A stretch of 36,004 nt of DNA from an uncultured Ectothiorhodospiraceae bacterium (lineage in GTDB: Bacteria; Pseudomonadota; Gammaproteobacteria; UBA9214), in assembly GCA_947258845.1 (NCBI GenBank), contig CAMYJZ010000031.1, forward strand, positions 1 to 36,004, written 5' to 3'. Both the position numbers and the translations under genes were made by a program. Numbering within the stretch: position 1 is the stretch's first letter; the number at the start of each line of letters is the position of its first letter. A model generated the notes under the pieces. That model did no database searches. It was not told the DNA's origin and saw nothing but the letters and a program-made list of their open reading frames with translations. Of this stretch, positions 5,617 to 31,072 are shown in pieces.

Positions 5617-7023
5617 TCACGCATCCTTGTGGCAACCGAACAGTTCGCGTTCGCGGATCATGCGGCCGACCTCGTCGGGGACCATGGTCTCCCAGCCCGG
5701 ATCCCCGCAGCGGATCTTTTCCAGGATGTCGCTGGACAAATAACCCAGGTAGTCCTGGTTGATGTCGGTCAGCGACTTGATCAGCCCGTTCTCGAGCAGG
5801 TATTCATACAAGTGACGCAGGTGGGGCGCCACCTCGAGGTCTTCGACCGTCACCAGATTACCCGTATCGGGATCCCTCCAGGGACAGACATAGAAGCGCA
5901 GGTTGTTCTTGAACAGCCGCCCGAATGCCTCGAGGATGCCGCCGGCGAGATCGGTGTAATAACGCTCGTCGAGAATCTCCTTCAGGGTGGGCACGCCCAT
6001 CGCGACGCCCACGGGCTTGTCGGTGTAGCGGTGCAGGTAACCGGCCAGCCGGTAGAAGGCGCCGTAGTTCGAGATCAGCACGTTCTTGCCCAGCATGCAG
6101 AGGATGTCCGCGCGCTGCAGGAAATCCTCGATCTGGATGTCGGTCCCGTCGGACAGGTTGTGCAGGGTCATTTCACTGAGCACCAGCGCACACTCGTCGC
6201 AGGCCTCGGGTTCCTTGACGAAGGCGGCATGCGCGCTGTCCAGCAGATTCATGGTCAGCTTGGTCGGCGGCTTGAAGCGGCTGCGCTCGATCAGGACCGC
6301 CTTCTTGTAGAGCATGTCACCCGGCTGCACCACCTTGCCGTCGGCCGTGAACATGGCCGCGTTGCAGGCGCCCTGCTGCACCAGCAGCAGCGCCATCAGG
6401 CGATTGTCCACATCGGCGAAGGCCGGGCCGCTGAAATCGAGCAGGTCGATTTCGAGGTTGTCCATGCTCAGGTTATCCAGCAGGGCCTCGAGCAGTTCAC
6501 GCGGGTCGCGGTACAGGTGGGTAGCGCCGTAGATCAGGTTCACGCCCAGCACCCCGAGCGTATCCTGGTCCTGCGTACTGTCCTTGCCGTGCAGGTACAC
6601 GTGCAGCACGATCTGCGAGGGCGTCTCGCGCGGCTGCGTCTGGAAGCGGATACCCAGCCAGCCGTGCCCTTCCTCGGCGTGACTGTAACTGTGGATGGTC
6701 ACGGTATTGGCGAAAGAAAAGAACGTGGTCACGGCGCCGCGCGTCTCGTCCAGGCGATCGATCAGCAGCTCGTATTCGTAATTAAGCATCGCCTCCAGGC
6801 GGTCGCGGCTGACATAGCGCTTGCAGGGCCCGTAGATGGAGTCGCTGAACTTCATGTCGTAGGCGGACATCGCCTTGGCGATGGTGCCCGCGGCACCGCC
6901 CACCTTGAAAAACCAGCGCGCCGTTTCCTGGCCCCCGCCGATCTCGGCAAGGGTGCCGTACTTGGTGGTGTCCCGGTTGACCATCAGGGCCTTCTCGTGG
7001 GCATCCGGCAACTTATTTACCAT
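5617..7023 (-). CDS. Conserved protein of unknown function (468 aa)
   Basis: The sequence has strong coding character. It resembles a conserved bacterial family that I recall under inconsistent automatic names (TonB-dependent receptor, nucleotide adenylyltransferase); none is supported by motifs visible here. There is no signal peptide, no beta-barrel pattern, and no HxGH or Rossmann signature. Distinctive stretches are GTLAEIGGGQETARWFF (about residues 23-39), MSAYDMKFSDSIYG, the acidic segment IEIDLLDFSGPAFADVDNRLM-like near the middle, and CPWRDPDTGNLVTVEDLEV toward the end. It is probably cytosolic. It follows ptsP on the same strand with 63 bases between, but a terminator-like hairpin lies in that gap. 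The final codons enter an F-type repeat that supplies the TGA. Confidence 0.7.
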   Translation of the reverse strand: MVNKLPDAHEKALMVNRDTTKYGTLAEIGGGQETARWFFKVGGAAGTIAKAMSAYDMKFSDSIYGPCKRYVSRDRLEAMLNYEYELLIDRLDETRGAVTTFFSFANTVTIHSYSHAEEGHGWLGIRFQTQPRETPSQIVLHVYLHGKDSTQDQDTLGVLGVNLIYGATHLYRDPRELLEALLDNLSMDNLEIDLLDFSGPAFADVDNRLMALLLVQQGACNAAMFTADGKVVQPGDMLYKKAVLIERSRFKPPTKLTMNLLDSAHAAFVKEPEACDECALVLSEMTLHNLSDGTDIQIEDFLQRADILCMLGKNVLISNYGAFYRLAGYLHRYTDKPVGVAMGVPTLKEILDERYYTDLAGGILEAFGRLFKNNLRFYVCPWRDPDTGNLVTVEDLEVAPHLRHLYEYLLENGLIKSLTDINQDYLGYLSSDILEKIRCGDPGWETMVPDEVGRMIRERELFGCHKDA

Positions 7024-21771: not shown

Positions 21772-22677
21772 ATGTCTCACCTTCGCATGTGCCGACTCAC
21801 TTCAACGCCCCTTACAGAGCGGCTTTACCCCGGACTGTTACTGGTTGTAACTGTTGCGCTGTACGGCTTTCTTTCTACAGCCGCAGCACATGTCGGTGTC
21901 CACGAGGAGATCGAGACCCTTTCCCGTCTCATCGAGCAGGATCCAGGCAACCCGGAGTTATACGTTTCACGTGGCAAGGCCTATCGCCTGCATCGCAGGT
22001 GGGACAGTGCTATCAAGGAGTTCAGCAAGGCTCTGGATATAGAACCGGACAATGTCGCTGCCACAATCGGCCTGGGCAGAACATACCTGGACAAGGGAAA
22101 CCCCTCGCGAGCCCTTACCATCCTGGATAAAACGCTAGCCCAGGAACCGGGTAATATACGGGCACTGATCTTGCGCGCCCAGGCCAACATGAAGACCGGA
22201 AAGCCTCTGAAGGCTGCTGCAGACTACTCAAGCGCCATTGAAAAATTCAGCGGGAAACGGAAACCACTGCCCGACTATTACCTTGACCGTGCACGTGCTT
22301 ATGCTGCCGCGGGCGAACCGTATCTTGACAGGGCATTGCAGGGTCTGGACGAAGGTATAACAGTTCTCGGCAATATTCGAACGCTGGAACTCTATGCCGT
22401 GGAACTCGAAATCATGCGCGGCAATTCAGATAGCGCACTTGAAAGACTCGACAGCATTCTCGCCCGCGCTACGCGCAAGGAATTCCTGTTACTCCAGCGC
22501 GGTGACATCCTGACTGCAGCGGATCGCACGACAGAAGCCATACAAAATTACCTGGCTGCAAAGACCGCCATTGAGAACCTGCCATCGCAACGCCGTCATA
22601 CACGCCCTGTTATGCAACTGCAAGCCGATTTGAATGACAGGCTCATATCACTCGGGAGCCCTGGTGATCATGATTAA
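21772..22677 (+). CDS. Secreted or anchored TPR protein
   Basis: This 301-aa protein has an N-terminal hydrophobic segment (LLLVVTVALYGFLSTAAAHV, about residues 24-43) that may be a signal peptide or anchor. Tetratricopeptide repeats follow from about residue 50: YVSRGKAYRLHRRWDSAIKE, IGLGRTYLDKGNPSRALTI, then the alanine-rich ILRAQANMKTGKPLKAAADY and further degenerate units. ATG 21772 has no convincing Shine-Dalgarno; ATG 21787 is possible. Its 3' end overlaps the start of the phosphatase gene by 8 bases, so the two are almost certainly co-translated and may interact in the envelope. Codon use looks slightly more relaxed than in the flanking core genes. Confidence 0.82.
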   Translation: MSHLRMCRLTSTPLTERLYPGLLLVVTVALYGFLSTAAAHVGVHEEIETLSRLIEQDPGNPELYVSRGKAYRLHRRWDSAIKEFSKALDIEPDNVAATIGLGRTYLDKGNPSRALTILDKTLAQEPGNIRALILRAQANMKTGKPLKAAADYSSAIEKFSGKRKPLPDYYLDRARAYAAAGEPYLDRALQGLDEGITVLGNIRTLELYAVELEIMRGNSDSALERLDSILARATRKEFLLLQRGDILTAADRTTEAIQNYLAAKTAIENLPSQRRHTRPVMQLQADLNDRLISLGSPGDHD

Positions 22678-24991
22678 CAGGGCTGTTGAAAACTCGATCC
22701 TGCTGCTGACGTTGCTGTTCTGGACTCTGTCAGCACTGGCAGCAACCCAGGTGTTGCTGGAAGCCGGATCAAGTAACAAATTTCTCGCCAATACCACCAA
22801 TCCCGGTTCCGGGAACAACTGGACTATGGAGGATTTTCCTGGTGAATCAGGCTGGACCAGCGGCACCTATGGCATAGGCTATGAAACCGGTACCGGCGCC
22901 CAGAATCTGTTTCAGACCACCATCCCCGCAGGCACTCATTCCATCTATACACGCGCAACATTTAATCTTGCCGATCCAGGGGCCATTACCGGTATGTTCC
23001 TTGGTGTTGATTATGATGATGGCTACGTGGCCTGGATCAATGGGACGGAGGTATCCCGTTCCGCCTCGATGCCGGCCGGCACACCCTCCTGGAATACGAC
23101 ACCGGCCTTGCACGAATCCAGTAATGCGACTAGCCCGGTTTACACCCCCCTGCAAGACATCACTTCCCTGGCGCTGCCTGTGCTGCATAGCGGGGAAAAT
23201 GTCCTGGCGATCGCCGCCTACAACAACTCAAGCAGCTCCAGCGACCTGGTACTGGTTCCGCAGCTCTCCATCACTACAACCGTCACTCGCGGGCCCTACC
23301 TGCAGCAGGGAACGCCCGACAGTATCATTGTCCGCTGGCGCACAGCGACGCCTACTGACAGTCGGGTTCGCTATGGCAATACCCCGGGCAATCTCAGCAG
23401 CTCGGTTGAAGATGCCGCCGCGACCACTGAACATGAAGTCACATTGACAGGGCTGGCCGCAGACACCACCTATTACTATTCCATTGGCAGCACGAGCGAA
23501 GTCTTCGCCGGCGATGACCCTGATCATTTCTTTCTGACATCACCTCCCGCCGGGTCTGTCAAACCCACCCGCTTGTGGGTGCTGGGGGATTCCGGTACGG
23601 CCAATGCCGATGCACAGGCCGTGGCCAATGCCTATGAAAACTTCACTGCTTCAACACACACCGACCTGTGGCTGATGCTGGGTGACAATGCCTATAACGA
23701 CGGCACCGACAATGAGTACCAGGCCGCCGTGTTCGATATGTATCCCGGGATGCTGCGCAAATCCGTGCTCTGGCCGACACTCGGCAACCACGACGGTCGT
23801 ACCGCGGATTCTGCAACCCAGACCGGTCCGTATTACGACATCTTTTCCCTGCCGACCAGTGGCGAGGCCGGCGGCCTGGCATCGGGCACCGAGGCCTACT
23901 ATTCATTCGATTATGGCAACATCCATTTCATCTGCCTGGATTCGCACGAGACCAACCGTTCACAGGGTGGGGCCATGATGAACTGGTTGACGCAGGATCT
24001 GGCCGCCACCTCGCAGGAATGGATCATTGCCTTCTGGCACCACCCCCCCTACTCCAAGGGCAGCCATAATTCCGATACCGAAACGCCGTTAATCGAGATG
24101 CGCGAGAATGCCCTCCCGATTCTCGAAGCAGCCGGCGTGGACCTGGTGCTATCAGGGCACAGCCACTCCTATGAGCGCTCCTATCTGATCGACGGCCATT
24201 ATGGAGTTTCAACGACACTGACACCGGGCATGCAGGTCGATTCAGGGGATGGCCAGGCTGACGGCGATGGCGCCTACAAGGCGGTGTTCAACGAGGCCGA
24301 TCCATACAGAGGGGCTGTTTATATCACCGCCGGGAGCTCGGGCAAAATCACCAGCGGCACACTGGATCATCCGGTGATGGTACATGCCTCATTACTGCAA
24401 CTCGGCTCGCTGGTGCTCGATATTGACGGTAACCGTCTGGATGCAAGATTCGTCAGGGAGAATGGTGCTATTGATGACTACTTCACCATTCTGAAGAACC
24501 CCGACAATTGCCCGGCCATCGCCAATCCCGATCAGCTGGACACCGATGGCGATGGCATGGGCAATGCCTGCGACATGGATGATGACAATGACGGCCTGAC
24601 AGACAGTTTTGAAGCGGGCATCGGCACCAATCCCTTGCTGGCCGATACCGACGGTGACACCCTGAGTGATTTCCAGGAAGTGAACTTTGACAATGACCCG
24701 GCCTACACACCGGGCGCAGACCTCAATCCGCTGTCAGCTGACACCGATGGCGACGGACTTCCGGACGCGACCGACCCGATTCCGCTCGACTTCAATTATG
24801 CAGACGGTGATGTGGTAACAGACGAAGATATCAACGCCGGTGATGCCGTTGTCATGTTGCGATTTGCATTTGATCTTGATCAGCCTGACAACACGCACCT
24901 GGCACACGGTGACCTGTATCCTCAAGGCAACCCGGACGGGATAATCAACCTTCAGGATCTGCTGCTGTTCTGGCAGTTGATGCTTCCCTGA
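22670..24991 (+). CDS. Secreted purple-acid-phosphatase-like metallophosphoesterase with calcium repeats and dockerin-like tail
   Basis: I start at MINRAVENSILLL (ATG 22670), which overlaps the TPR gene end. The 773-aa product has a signal peptide (LLLTLLFWTLSALAA), a beta-sandwich region to about residue 200, a fibronectin-like PAP N-domain (GPYLQQGTPDSIIVRWRT) and a metallophosphoesterase domain at about 305-600. Its motifs are WVLGDSGTANAD, LMLGDNAYNDG, TLGNHDGR, FWHHPPYSKG and LSGHSHSYERSY, so the binuclear metal ligands are all present. Asp-rich thrombospondin-type-3 repeats follow (DQLDTDGDGMGNACDMDDDN, LADTDGDTLSDFQE). The last about 65 residues have two EF-hand-like units (DGDVVTDEDINAGDAVVML, NPDGIINLQDLLLFWQLML) resembling a type I dockerin. 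It is probably a calcium-stabilised extracellular phosphatase. Confidence 0.88.
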   Translation: MINRAVENSILLLTLLFWTLSALAATQVLLEAGSSNKFLANTTNPGSGNNWTMEDFPGESGWTSGTYGIGYETGTGAQNLFQTTIPAGTHSIYTRATFNLADPGAITGMFLGVDYDDGYVAWINGTEVSRSASMPAGTPSWNTTPALHESSNATSPVYTPLQDITSLALPVLHSGENVLAIAAYNNSSSSSDLVLVPQLSITTTVTRGPYLQQGTPDSIIVRWRTATPTDSRVRYGNTPGNLSSSVEDAAATTEHEVTLTGLAADTTYYYSIGSTSEVFAGDDPDHFFLTSPPAGSVKPTRLWVLGDSGTANADAQAVANAYENFTASTHTDLWLMLGDNAYNDGTDNEYQAAVFDMYPGMLRKSVLWPTLGNHDGRTADSATQTGPYYDIFSLPTSGEAGGLASGTEAYYSFDYGNIHFICLDSHETNRSQGGAMMNWLTQDLAATSQEWIIAFWHHPPYSKGSHNSDTETPLIEMRENALPILEAAGVDLVLSGHSHSYERSYLIDGHYGVSTTLTPGMQVDSGDGQADGDGAYKAVFNEADPYRGAVYITAGSSGKITSGTLDHPVMVHASLLQLGSLVLDIDGNRLDARFVRENGAIDDYFTILKNPDNCPAIANPDQLDTDGDGMGNACDMDDDNDGLTDSFEAGIGTNPLLADTDGDTLSDFQEVNFDNDPAYTPGADLNPLSADTDGDGLPDATDPIPLDFNYADGDVVTDEDINAGDAVVMLRFAFDLDQPDNTHLAHGDLYPQGNPDGIINLQDLLLFWQLMLP

Positions 24992-25383: not shown

Positions 25384-27063
25384 TCACTCGTCCGTCACGC
25401 AACCCTCGGAGGCGTTCTTCACCAGCTTGATGTACTTGTACAGGGTGCCACTGGTGGCCTTGTAGGGTGGCATGGTCCAGGCCTGGCGCCGCTGTTTCAT
25501 TTCCGTCTCACTGACATCGACCATCAGGCTGCAACTGTCGGCGTCGATGGTGATGATGTCACCGTCCCGGACCAGGGCGATCGGCCCACCCTCCTGGGCC
25601 TCCGGCACGATGTGGCCGATGATGAAACCGTGTGAGCCACCGGAGAAACGGCCATCGGTCAGCAGGGCCACGTCCTTGCCCAGCCCGGCCCCCATGATGG
25701 CCGAGGTCGGGGTGAGCATCTCCGGCATCCCGGGGCCGCCCTTGGGGCCCTCGTAGCGGATCACCACCACGTCGCCCTTCTGGATGCGGTCCTCCTCCAG
25801 CGCCTGCAGCATGTCCTCCTCGCTGTCGAACACCCGGGCCGGACCGCTGAACTGCAGACCCTCCTTGCCGGTGATCTTGGCGACCGAACCGCCGGGGGCC
25901 AGGTTGCCCTTGAGGATCTGGATATGACCGGTCTGCTTGATCGGGTCGTCCAGGGCGTGGAAGACATCCTGGCCCGCCGCCAGGCCCGGCAGCTCCTGCA
26001 GGTTCTCGGCCAGGGTCTTGCCGGTCACGGTAAGGCAGCTGCCGTCCAGCAGGTCCTGCTCCAGCAGGTACTTCATCACCCCCGGGGTGCCGCCCACCTT
26101 GTGCAGGTCCTCCATGACATAGCGGCCGCTTGGCTTGAGATCGGCAAGAAACGGAATGCGGTCGCTGACCTGCTGGATGTCGTCGATGGACAGCGGCACA
26201 TCAACGGCGCGGGCCATAGCCAGCAGGTGCAGCACGGCGTTGGTCGAACCGCCCAGCGCGATCACCACCACCAGGGCATTCTCGAAAGCCGTACGCGTCA
26301 TGATGTCACGTGGCTTGATATCCAGCTCCAGCAGCTTGCGGATCGCCGCTCCCGCCTGCAGGCACTCCTCGATCTTCAGGGGATCCACCGCGGGCGTCGA
26401 GGAACTGTAGGGCAGTGACATCCCCATCGCCTCGATAGCGGAGGCCATGGTATTGGCCGTGTACATGCCGCCGCAGGCGCCGGCACCCGGGCAGGAGTTC
26501 TCGATGATTTCCCGACGCGTCCTGTCGTCGATCTTGCCTGCGATAAATTCGCCGTAACTCTGGAAGGCGGACACCACGTCCAGGGTCTGGCTGCCGAGAT
26601 GGCCCGGCTTGATGGTGCCGCCGTAGACCATGAGCGCGGGCCGGTTGAGACGACCCATGGCGATCAGGCAACCGGGCATGTTCTTGTCGCAGCCGGGCAG
26701 GGAGATATTGGCGTCATACCACTGTGCGCTCATGACGGTCTCGATCGAATCGGCTATCAGATCGCGCGACTGCAGCGAGTAGCTCATGCCATCGGTGCCC
26801 ATGGAAATGCCGTCGCTGACACCGATGGTATTGAAACGCATCCCGACCAGGCCGGCCGCCTGCACCCCCTCGCGCACCTTCGCGGCCAGGTCGTTGAGGT
26901 GCATATTGCAGGTATTGCCCTCGTACCAGACGCTGGAGATACCGACCTGTGCCTTGTCCATGTCCTCGAGCGTCAGCCCGGTGCCGTGCAGCATGGCCTG
27001 GGAGGCACCCTGTGACTTGGGCTGGGTGATGCGCGAGCTGTAGCGGTTTAACTTGTTTGCCAT
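25384..27063 (-). CDS. ilvD: Dihydroxy-acid dehydratase IlvD
   Basis: This 559-aa iron-sulfur enzyme dehydrates 2,3-dihydroxy-isovalerate and its methylvalerate homologue to 2-keto acids in valine and isoleucine synthesis. Cluster cysteines are visible in [14 protein letters not shown] (about residue 54), [13 protein letters not shown] (about 124-131) and [19 protein letters not shown] (about 193-199). [10 protein letters not shown] and [22 protein letters not shown], carrying the active-site serine region, are full matches. The length is typical of the shorter bacterial form. The start [15 protein letters not shown] is preceded by AGAGG at a somewhat long spacing. It is monocistronic, flanked on both sides by repeats. 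Confidence 0.95.
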
Positions 27064-27838: not shown

Positions 27839-28132
27839 ATGTACCAACCGACAATCAACGATGCTGAAGCAAGAGAGTTGATCGAGCTGGGCGCGCAACT
27901 GATCGATGTGCGGAACCCGCATGAATACCGGCACAGTCCCGTGCCTGGCTCGGTCAATATACCGTTACCCGTCATCCAGCAGGCGCTGAAGCAGCTGGAC
28001 AAGGAGACCCCGGTGCTGCTGTATTGCAACAGCGGGCAGCGTAGCGGCGTGGCCAAGCGCCTGCTCGATGCCTGCGGGTTTTCCATGGTCCACAACCTGG
28101 GCTCCTACACCACGCTGATCGGGCGCGGTTAG
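27839..28132 (+). CDS. Single-domain rhodanese (sulfurtransferase)
   Basis: I start at MYQPTINDAEARELIE (ATG 27839) with CAGGAG 5 bases upstream; the ORF-track start is inside the preceding small gene. The 97-aa product is a complete rhodanese domain with LIDVRNPHEYRHSPVPGSVN (residues about 22-41) and the active loop LLYCNSGQRSG, in which Cys carries the persulfide. It has no signal peptide and is probably cytosolic. Such proteins move sulfane sulfur between thiosulfate, glutathione persulfide and acceptor proteins. Its placement just before an ETHE1-like gene fits a persulfide detoxification or sulfide-oxidation unit. Confidence 0.92.
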   Translation: MYQPTINDAEARELIELGAQLIDVRNPHEYRHSPVPGSVNIPLPVIQQALKQLDKETPVLLYCNSGQRSGVAKRLLDACGFSMVHNLGSYTTLIGRG

Positions 28133-28180: not shown

Positions 28181-28894
28181 ATGAATATACACCAGCTGTT
28201 CGATCCGGGAAGCAGCAGTTATTCCTACCTGCTGTGGGACGGCGCTTCGCGTGAAGCGGCGCTGATCGATCCTGTTCATGAACAGTTCTCACGTGATCTC
28301 CGGCTGATCAGGGAGCTCGATCTGAGACTGCTTTATACGCTTGAAACGCACATCCACGCCGACCGTATAACCGGCTCGAGTCTACTCAGAGAGGCTCTGA
28401 ACTCCATTGTGCTGGTGCATGGGGACTACGGTTCTAAATGCGCCGATTTTCTGCTAAGGGATGGTGACCAGGTTCCGCTGGGTTCAGCGAAGATCAACAT
28501 ATTGCACACCCCCGGCCACACCCAGGGCGACGTGTGCTATTTGATCCCGGGCATCGTATTCAGTGGCGAAACCCTTCTCATCCGGGGCTGCGGACGCACC
28601 GACTTCCAGTCCAGCGATCCCGGCACCCTCTACGATTCCATCACCCGGCGACTGTTTACACTGCCCGACGATACCATCGTCTATCCGGGCCATGACTACA
28701 ACGGCCACTCGTATACCACCATTGAAGAGGAAATGGCGTACAATCCGCGTATCGGCAAGGGGAAATCGCGCGACGAGTTTATCGCCATCATGAATGGCCT
28801 GAAGCTCGACCTACCGTCACACATGCACGAGGCCCTCCCCAGCAACCTGCATTGCGGCAGCACCGACTACGTCCCGAAGCAGCTGTCTTCCTAG
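28181..28894 (+). CDS. ETHE1-like MBL-fold protein (persulfide dioxygenase family) with altered metal motifs
   Basis: This 237-aa protein aligns by eye end to end with ETHE1-type persulfide dioxygenases, mononuclear iron enzymes that oxidise glutathione persulfide to sulfite. ETHE1 signatures are TLETHIHADRITGSSLL, LHTPGHTQGDV, LLIRGCGRTDFQ, VYPGHDYNGHSYTTIEEE and a C-terminal NLHCG. Two conserved positions differ. The HxHxDH motif reads HIHADR, with Arg for the last His. The iron-ligand aspartate of TGD (D154 in human ETHE1) is Glu in FSGETLLIRG. The first His and the PGHT His are kept. Whether iron binding and dioxygenase activity survive is open. An AAGGA box lies upstream. The gene follows the rhodanese by 48 bases. 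Confidence 0.88.
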   Translation: MNIHQLFDPGSSSYSYLLWDGASREAALIDPVHEQFSRDLRLIRELDLRLLYTLETHIHADRITGSSLLREALNSIVLVHGDYGSKCADFLLRDGDQVPLGSAKINILHTPGHTQGDVCYLIPGIVFSGETLLIRGCGRTDFQSSDPGTLYDSITRRLFTLPDDTIVYPGHDYNGHSYTTIEEEMAYNPRIGKGKSRDEFIAIMNGLKLDLPSHMHEALPSNLHCGSTDYVPKQLSS

Positions 28895-29065: not shown

Positions 29066-31072
29066 ATGCCCCTCATACAGACTGGACCGAAACAGAATAT
29101 GAAGAACAACACCCGCCTGCTCACCAGCCTTGGCCTGCTGGCCCTGCCCATCCTGATCTTCATGCTGGTGTCGGTTTCACTGGTCCAGCTGCATGCCAGC
29201 ACCCAGAACATGACCCGGCTGGTCGAGGTCACCAATCTCAAGACCAAGGCCGCCAACGACATGCGCGATGCCATCCGTCTGCGCAACAACAGCCTCGACA
29301 TCATTCGCCTCACCGAGAGTCCGGACGAACGTGACAGCGAATACCGGGAATACATGCAGCACGAGGGGAAGTACTGGGCCGCGCGGGAGAAACTGGTCAG
29401 TCTCGGTATGGACACCACGGAATATGACATCCACCAGGAACTCACCCGGCTCGCCCTGGCAGCCCAACCCTACAATGACGACATCTCCGAAAAACTGCAG
29501 GAGAATACAGCCGCCGGGGATCTCACGGCCGCCATTGCAACGGCCGAACAACACCAGAACGACATCCTCGAGCAACTGGACAAACTGGTCGCTCTGGTAC
29601 AGACAAACTCACGCGCAGTACTGTCCGCCACCCGGCAACACTACCAGGGCACACGCAAGCTGCTGTTCACGCTGGTCGGGATTGCCCTGGCGTTCTGCAT
29701 CCTGGTCGCCAGGATCGTCATCCAGCGCGTCTCTGCAAAGAACCAGAAACTGAACTACGAGGCCTCACACGACACCCTTACGGGCCTGATCAACCGGCGC
29801 GGGTTCGAAAAACGGGTCAAGCGGGCCATGCTACAGGCCCGGACGCAATCACTCACCCACACGCTGCTGCACCTTGACCTGGACCAGTTCCGGCATATCA
29901 ACAACAGCTACGGCCACCAGGCGGGAGATGAACTTCTGCAGCAACTCGGTCAGCTGCTGCTCAGTTCGGTGCGCCAGCGCGACACCCTCAGCCGTCTCGG
30001 CGCCGATGAATTCGGCATTCTGCTGGAGAACTGCCCGCTGGAAAAAGCGGTACAGATCGCCAACAATCTGCTCAGTGCCGTTGAAAGATTCCAGTTCACC
30101 TGGGGTGACAGCTCGTTCACGCCGGGCATCTGCATCGGTATGGTGCCGATCAACCGCAACACCACCGGTCTCGAGAAGATCCTGAACGCGGCCGATTCCG
30201 CCTGTTATATCGCCAGGCAGGCCGGTCACAATCAGCTGCAGATCGCGCACCTCGGCGACCCGGACCTGCAGGAGCAGCACTCTCAGATGCAATGGGCATC
30301 ACGCCTGACCAGGGCGCTGGAAGAAGATCATTTCACCCTCTACTTCCAGCAGATCAATCCCTGCGACGGCAAAGCCAGGCATGACAAGCACGTCGAGATA
30401 CTGTTACGCATGGTTGACGATGATGGCCTGGCGGTCACTCCCGCGGCATTCCTGCCCGCAGGCGAGAAGCACCAGCTGGCCGCTGAAATCGATCGCTGGG
30501 TAATCAGGAATGCGCTGTCCTGGCTGGCACAGGAGAACGCGTGCAGTCACTGGCCTATCAGGATCACCATCAACCTGTCCGGACAATCGATAAACGATGC
30601 GGCCATGCAGAAATACATCATCGACCAGAAAAATGAACATGGAGTGAATCCGGAACAGGTCTGTTTCGAGATCACCGAATCGGCCGCCATTACCAACATC
30701 GCCACGGCCACGAGCTTCATGCTGACGCTGCGCGGCTGCGGCTTCCAGTTTTCACTCGACGACTTCGGCGGCGCCCTCTCCTCATTCGTCTACCTGAAGA
30801 AACTTCCGGTCGACTATATCAAGATCGACGGCACCTTCACGCGCGACATCATGACCGACCCTATCGACCGGGCCATGGTGAAGTCCATCAATATCATGGC
30901 GCACCTGCTCGGCAAACAGACCATTGCCGAGGGCATTGAAACCATGGACGTCGCCGATGAACTGAAACGCATGGGAGTCGACTATGTCGCCGGCTATGCC
31001 TACACCCAGCCCCGGCCCCTGGAAGACTTCTCCCTGGTCATGGGACCACGCCTGATGGTGGTCTCGTCGTGA
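29066..31072 (+). CDS. Membrane sensor with degenerate GGDEF and probable active EAL domain
   Basis: This 668-aa protein has a first membrane helix (LLALPILIFMLVSVSLVQL), a helical periplasmic sensor region at about residues 45-205, a second helix (LLFTLVGIALAFCILVARIVI), then GGDEF and EAL domains. The cyclase motif is GADEF instead of GGDEF, which probably weakens or removes activity, but the inhibitory RxxD site (RQRD, five residues before) is intact and could bind c-di-GMP. The phosphodiesterase motif is EIL (HVEILLRM) instead of EAL but keeps the glutamate. NLSGQS, FEITESA, SLDDFGG, YIKIDGTF and TIAEGIET are present. I infer a c-di-GMP phosphodiesterase tuned by its GGDEF-like domain. 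ATG 29066 has a weak AGG; ATG 29099 is an alternative. Confidence 0.9.
   Translation: MPLIQTGPKQNMKNNTRLLTSLGLLALPILIFMLVSVSLVQLHASTQNMTRLVEVTNLKTKAANDMRDAIRLRNNSLDIIRLTESPDERDSEYREYMQHEGKYWAAREKLVSLGMDTTEYDIHQELTRLALAAQPYNDDISEKLQENTAAGDLTAAIATAEQHQNDILEQLDKLVALVQTNSRAVLSATRQHYQGTRKLLFTLVGIALAFCILVARIVIQRVSAKNQKLNYEASHDTLTGLINRRGFEKRVKRAMLQARTQSLTHTLLHLDLDQFRHINNSYGHQAGDELLQQLGQLLLSSVRQRDTLSRLGADEFGILLENCPLEKAVQIANNLLSAVERFQFTWGDSSFTPGICIGMVPINRNTTGLEKILNAADSACYIARQAGHNQLQIAHLGDPDLQEQHSQMQWASRLTRALEEDHFTLYFQQINPCDGKARHDKHVEILLRMVDDDGLAVTPAAFLPAGEKHQLAAEIDRWVIRNALSWLAQENACSHWPIRITINLSGQSINDAAMQKYIIDQKNEHGVNPEQVCFEITESAAITNIATATSFMLTLRGCGFQFSLDDFGGALSSFVYLKKLPVDYIKIDGTFTRDIMTDPIDRAMVKSINIMAHLLGKQTIAEGIETMDVADELKRMGVDYVAGYAYTQPRPLEDFSLVMGPRLMVVSS

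Follow-up and report, generated by a model that had tools for sequence, protein, structure and literature searches.

Organization of the locus

The window, that is, the whole stretch of 36,004 nucleotides that was analysed, carries a gene for an orthologue of the persulfide dioxygenase (PDO) ETHE1, which lies between a single-domain rhodanese gene and a gene for a GGDEF-EAL-type protein (Table 1). The ETHE1 reading frame runs uninterrupted from ATG to TAG over its full length, with AAGGA about 8 bases 5' of the ATG, and the rhodanese and ETHE1 are probably on one transcript. The gene order ilvD (minus strand), rhodanese, ETHE1, GGDEF-EAL gene, argE and argA is shared by G002, G001 and G012 and, in part, by other genomes of the family. 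Rhodanese adjoins a normal ETHE1 in both G001 and G002, and this adjacency is ancestral in the genus. Elsewhere in the window, at 22634-24991, a large protein resembles a secreted calcineurin-type phosphoesterase, with a C-terminus that looks calcium-binding-repeat-like and dockerin-like, as read by eye.

Table 1. Features of the ETHE1 locus and of the corresponding remnant in a congener. Positions refer to the window unless another locus is given.
Feature	Position	Strand	Basis or remark
ilvD (dihydroxy-acid dehydratase), conserved left neighbour for synteny	25384..27063	-	name by sequence recognition, not family search
Single-domain rhodanese, ~97 aa, CNSGQRS active-site loop intact, 48 bases upstream of ETHE1	27839..28132	+	locus comparison
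ETHE1/PDO orthologue, 237 aa, predicted catalytically crippled	28181..28894	+	sequence searches, alignment, AlphaFold model
HIHADR motif (H57-I-H59-A-D61-R62), iron ligand H57 retained, Arg for His62	28349..28366	+	codons, alignment; residue roles PMC6060420
H113, second His iron ligand, retained	28517..28519	+	alignment
SGE (S128-G129-E130), Glu for iron-ligand Asp130	28562..28570	+	codons, alignment, motif scans; D130E mutant PMC6060420
GGDEF-EAL-type protein, conserved right neighbour for synteny	29066..31072	+	name by sequence recognition
ETHE1 remnant of G004	L035 (G004:C12:25000-37000), 5850-6260		between intact rhodanese and intact GGDEF gene

A type I persulfide dioxygenase with an altered active site

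Type I PDOs convert glutathione persulfide, O2 and H2O to sulfite and glutathione at a mononuclear 2-His-1-Asp iron centre. In a phmmer search of solved structures, the best relative of the window protein is Myxococcus ETHE1 (4ysb, E = 1.7e-71), while human ETHE1 (4chl) and a PDO-rhodanese fusion (5ve3) each match with E = 4e-60. An AlphaFold model computed from 39 input sequences reaches a mean pLDDT of 90.5 and superposes on 4ysb with TM scores of 0.92/0.97 and an rmsd of 1.1. The ETHE1 fold signatures that the earlier note had recognized are borne out by these matches. Judged by full-length similarity to solved PDOs and by the motifs GCGRTDFQ, P-x-H-D-Y and NxxCG, the reading frame is a type I PDO (ETHE1) as a sequence family, and chance similarity is ruled out.

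The numbering of the window protein equals that of Acidithiobacillus caldus PDO at all residues compared, from T56 to Y173, so that published mutants can be transferred directly. The motifs read T-H57-I-H59-A-D61-R62, S128-G129-E130-TLLIRGCGRTDFQ and NLHC225G. Residues H57, H59, D61, H113, R139, D141, H171, Y173 and R190 are all present; R139, D141, Y173 and R190 among them belong to the glutathione-persulfide site.

The readings HIHADR and SGE, first given in the earlier note, were confirmed from the reading frame and its codons. R62 is encoded by CGT (28364-28366), S128 by AGT (28562-28564) and E130 by GAA (28568-28570), and the sister genomes have CAT, ACC and GAC at the same positions. The iron ligands of human ETHE1, His79, His135 and Asp154, correspond to H57, H113 and D130 here (PMC4383860). 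Of the iron triad, H57 and H113 are thus kept, and the Asp ligand has indeed become Glu, as had been proposed. The description of both substitutions as lying at metal-site positions holds for E130 and not for R62, which belongs to the second sphere: the equivalent human His84 is present in the structure and binds no metal (PMC4383860). In A. caldus PDO, H171 bonds D130 and D61, and D61 in turn pairs with H62 (PMC6060420). The THxHADH motif with this D61-H62-H171 hydrogen-bond network is broken in the window protein by Arg at position 62. The first residue of SGE is less odd than it seems, since Ser128 occurs in 17 of the 106 aligned sequences, the window's included.

Rarity of the two substitutions

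Of 106 aligned homologues, 105 have His at position 62, and the window protein alone has Arg. Position 130 is Asp in 104 of them and Glu in the window protein only; the single Lys is that of G007, which belongs to the same family. A scan for the Glu form with a degenerate DNA pattern for G-E-x-L-L-[IMV]-x3-G-R-T-D-F-Q gave no match in contigs of 84,980 species, represented by one genome each, a set from which the window's own genome is possibly absent. Within the class, 369 genomes were scanned: 110 matched the Asp form, and the window's genome was the only one to match the Glu form. No clade that combines HIHADR with SGETLLIRG, the check suggested in the earlier note, exists in any of the three collections. 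The same-genus orthologues of G002 (79% identity) and G001 (76%) have HVHADH and TGD and are normal, which places the origin of both changes on the branch that leads to the window's genome.

Expected effect on enzyme activity

Both positions have been probed by mutagenesis in A. caldus PDO. Replacement of D130 by Glu, as well as by Ala or His, leaves 0.5-2% of the activity with variable iron loading, and the H62A mutant has undetectable activity and an unchanged melting point (PMC6060420). The window protein carries the exact D130E change plus the loss of His62. By analogy it is predicted to fold, may bind some iron, and would be at best a very weak dioxygenase; the analogy is drawn from two published single mutants, and the forms measured include neither the double mutant nor Arg62. 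The earlier suggestion that a 2-His-1-Glu site might hold iron is compatible with the variable iron content of the D130E mutant, yet the activity that accompanied it was low. On the other hand, the third His, at position 62, is replaced by Phe or Tyr in type III PDOs (PMC6060420) and is therefore not required in every PDO.

Erosion of the gene across the family

Evidence from related genomes suggests that the window's gene is not an isolated case. In G004, a genome of the same genus that is 100% complete, all that is left in the ETHE1 slot is a short stretch interrupted by stops and frameshifts, whereas the rhodanese, the GGDEF gene and other neighbours are intact; a search of that genome found no other close PDO. 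In G005 and G014, ilvD adjoins the GGDEF gene, and neither ETHE1 nor rhodanese was matched in the space between the two. Furthermore, six orthologues with open frames have lost catalytic or substrate-binding residues: D130K in G007 (G007:C215; L053 / L006), where TGK replaces TGD and the same iron ligand is lost; R139W and R190H in G006 (L057 / L017); Y173D in G012 (L007); Y173H in G013 (L012); and R190Q in G020 and G016 (L015-L016). In A. caldus PDO, R139A keeps 0.4% of the activity and Y173A about 10% (PMC6060420). All key residues are kept in eight family genomes (G001, G002, G010, G011, G015, G017, G019 and G021). Counted over 42 positions with a conservation of 97% or more, departures average 0.17 in 88 homologues outside the family versus 2.0 in the family orthologues.

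The rhodanese neighbour does not follow this pattern. It accompanies ETHE1 genes whether they are normal, altered or dead, and the substitutions are thus not explained by it; no rhodanese match was found beside ETHE1 in G006, G016, G019, G020 and G021. The proposal of the earlier note that the protein may now serve the rhodanese as a partner sulfurtransferase or hydrolase is therefore unsupported, and a coupling of the substitutions to this neighbour was rejected by synteny.

An alternative route of sulfur oxidation may make the PDO dispensable in the family, as DsrA was found in 13 of the 17 family genomes searched. The argument could extend to the window's genome by analogy: that genome (94% complete) gave no DsrA match, owing to an assembly gap or a real loss. 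A back-up PDO was also sought there. The other matches were only those on contigs C10 and C125, which by motif resemble glyoxalase II-type genes, so redundancy does not explain the damage to ETHE1. Contig C125 (L044 of G000) is over its whole 3.6 kb 85-89% identical to part of C10 (L043), with a glyoxalase-II-like gene on both, and probably represents DNA from a second, related genome within the bin.

Selection on the branch

Under a codon model with 17 orthologues, dN/dS was 0.19 (about 0.12-0.31) on the window's branch, 0.20 on those of the two intact sisters and 0.11 on the rest. Neutral evolution of the window's branch was rejected (2dlnL = 33.5, p = 7e-9), and once the sisters were given their own rate, no acceleration specific to the window's genome was detected (2dlnL = 0.01). 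The gene thus shows neither the frame disruption nor the neutral dN/dS of a pseudogene, and an old pseudogene is ruled out. Recent inactivation is possible despite the open frame and low dN/dS; the neutral share of the branch is at most about 14%, a rough estimate from the upper bound that assumes the sisters' rate for the remainder. Because dN/dS lies far below 1, either the loss of constraint was late and brief on the branch or the protein retains a selected role. Where measured, dN/dS is about 0.14-0.16, with neutrality rejected, in further orthologues of the family that have lost catalytic residues.

The 25 private residues of the window protein are more radical than those of its sisters (mean BLOSUM62 -0.04 versus 0.80 and 1.11, p = 0.01), and private changes at the 42 highly conserved positions number 3, against 0/29 in the sisters (p = 0.09). 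These radical changes fit a loss of constraint late on the branch, and are also compatible with a protein kept for another role. In ETHE1, dN and dS are both raised on the window's branch only, with an excess of about 2 standard errors by rough estimate, and gene replacement by recombination was considered on this account.

Interpretation and significance

The window ETHE1 is probably a PDO that mutation has crippled in nature and that selection ceased to maintain only recently; its family repeatedly loses or damages the gene. Its ancestor would have been a normal type I PDO in the ilvD-rhodanese-ETHE1-GGDEF locus of this gammaproteobacterial family. The change D130E would lengthen the sole carboxylate ligand and so misplace the iron, and H62R would disrupt the D61-H62-H171-D130 hydrogen-bond network. 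With the fold, both His ligands and most glutathione-binding residues retained, the protein likely folds and may hold some iron, leaving a poor or dead dioxygenase that would be the natural counterpart of two inactivating laboratory mutants. Its release from selection would be recent, in a setting where relatives lost or damaged the same locus again and again.

The low dN/dS, the rejection of neutrality and the intact frame are what one would expect if the protein had been maintained, either as a pseudoenzyme or with changed chemistry, so that R62 and E130 are co-adapted in a 2-His-1-Glu site for iron or another metal, or in a non-oxidising persulfide binder, with a new role perhaps shared with the rhodanese. 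The low dN/dS of the other damaged family orthologues points the same way, as do the confidently predicted fold and the residual iron loading of A. caldus D130E (PMC6060420). However, neither change appears in any second genome searched, and the residues lost differ from one lineage of the family to the next, which resembles decay more than a shared new function. Moreover, the congener G004 keeps an intact rhodanese but only a remnant of ETHE1, and the private changes of the window protein are more radical than those of its sisters. A maintained protein of this kind is possible on the strength of its intact, conserved frame, and we consider it unlikely. Its more specific form, in which a selected PDO-fold protein with co-adapted Arg62 and Glu130 (2-His-1-Glu iron or a persulfide-binding pseudoenzyme) serves a non-dioxygenase role and the other altered family orthologues are parallel conversions, seems improbable.

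That the enzyme still works, Glu130 and Arg62 being tolerated in this background with activity normal or usefully lowered, would agree with a strength of selection equal to that on the intact sisters, with the presence of every other key residue from H57 to R190, and with the absence of the third His from type III PDOs (PMC6060420). It is at odds with the near-complete loss of activity in D130E and H62A of a close type I relative (PMC6060420) and with the lack of any further Glu130 form in the scan of species' contigs, and we hold it to be rather unlikely. An error of sequence or assembly in this metagenome-assembled genome is very improbable. R62 and E130 are each one base away from the sister codons, and the bin seems to include some DNA of a second related genome (contig C125); yet S128 lies two changes away from the sisters' codon, the private residues occur throughout the gene and synonymous divergence matches them, as in real evolution, the frame is intact over 237 codons, and a search of the genome turned up the locus only once.

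If the preferred reading of a recently crippled PDO is right, annotation of persulfide dioxygenase by homology would mislead on activity in the window's genome and in several of its relatives. The window ETHE1 is a natural double variant at positions earlier probed by mutagenesis only, and its ortholog group has repeatedly and independently lost catalytic residues and the gene as a whole. The group thereby offers a small natural test set for asking which residues go first once activity is unneeded, or how pseudoenzymes form. The window ETHE1 opens no new mechanism in itself; the open-frame family orthologues with other residues lost make up a family-wide pattern that is perhaps worth its own study.

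Relation to known systems

The window protein shares length, fold and the residues H57, H113, R139, D141, H171, Y173, R190, C87 and C225 with type I PDOs, represented by Myxococcus xanthus MxPDO (4ysb), A. caldus AcPDO, human ETHE1 (4chl) and Beggiatoa PDO (8zbd). It departs from them by Glu for Asp130, Arg for the second-sphere His62 and Ser for the conserved Gly145. With the laboratory mutants D130E and H62A of AcPDO it has in common the same ligand change and the loss of the same second-sphere His (PMC6060420), but here both changes occur together and in nature, and His62 has become Arg instead of Ala.

In the PDO-rhodanese fusions (Paraburkholderia phytofirmans PRF, 5ve3-5ve5; S. aureus CstB), the PDO fold is linked genetically to a rhodanese, as it is here. 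The PDO domain of the fusions has an intact iron site, whereas the window has separate genes, and several relatives have no rhodanese neighbour; the pairing is thus not constant. Glyoxalase II (hydroxyacylglutathione hydrolase) shares with the window protein the metallo-beta-lactamase fold, an HxHxDH-type motif and chemistry on a glutathione thioester or persulfide. The human enzyme needs a dinuclear site formed by Asp58, His59, His173 and the bridging Asp134 (PMC4383860). Two positions of that site, His62 and the bridging Asp130, are missing from the window protein, and its score of 101 bits with the glyoxalase II model TIGR03413 is half the curated cut-off of 200.8, which places it outside that family. 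The glyoxalase-II-like gene on contig C125 contains a short internal duplication.
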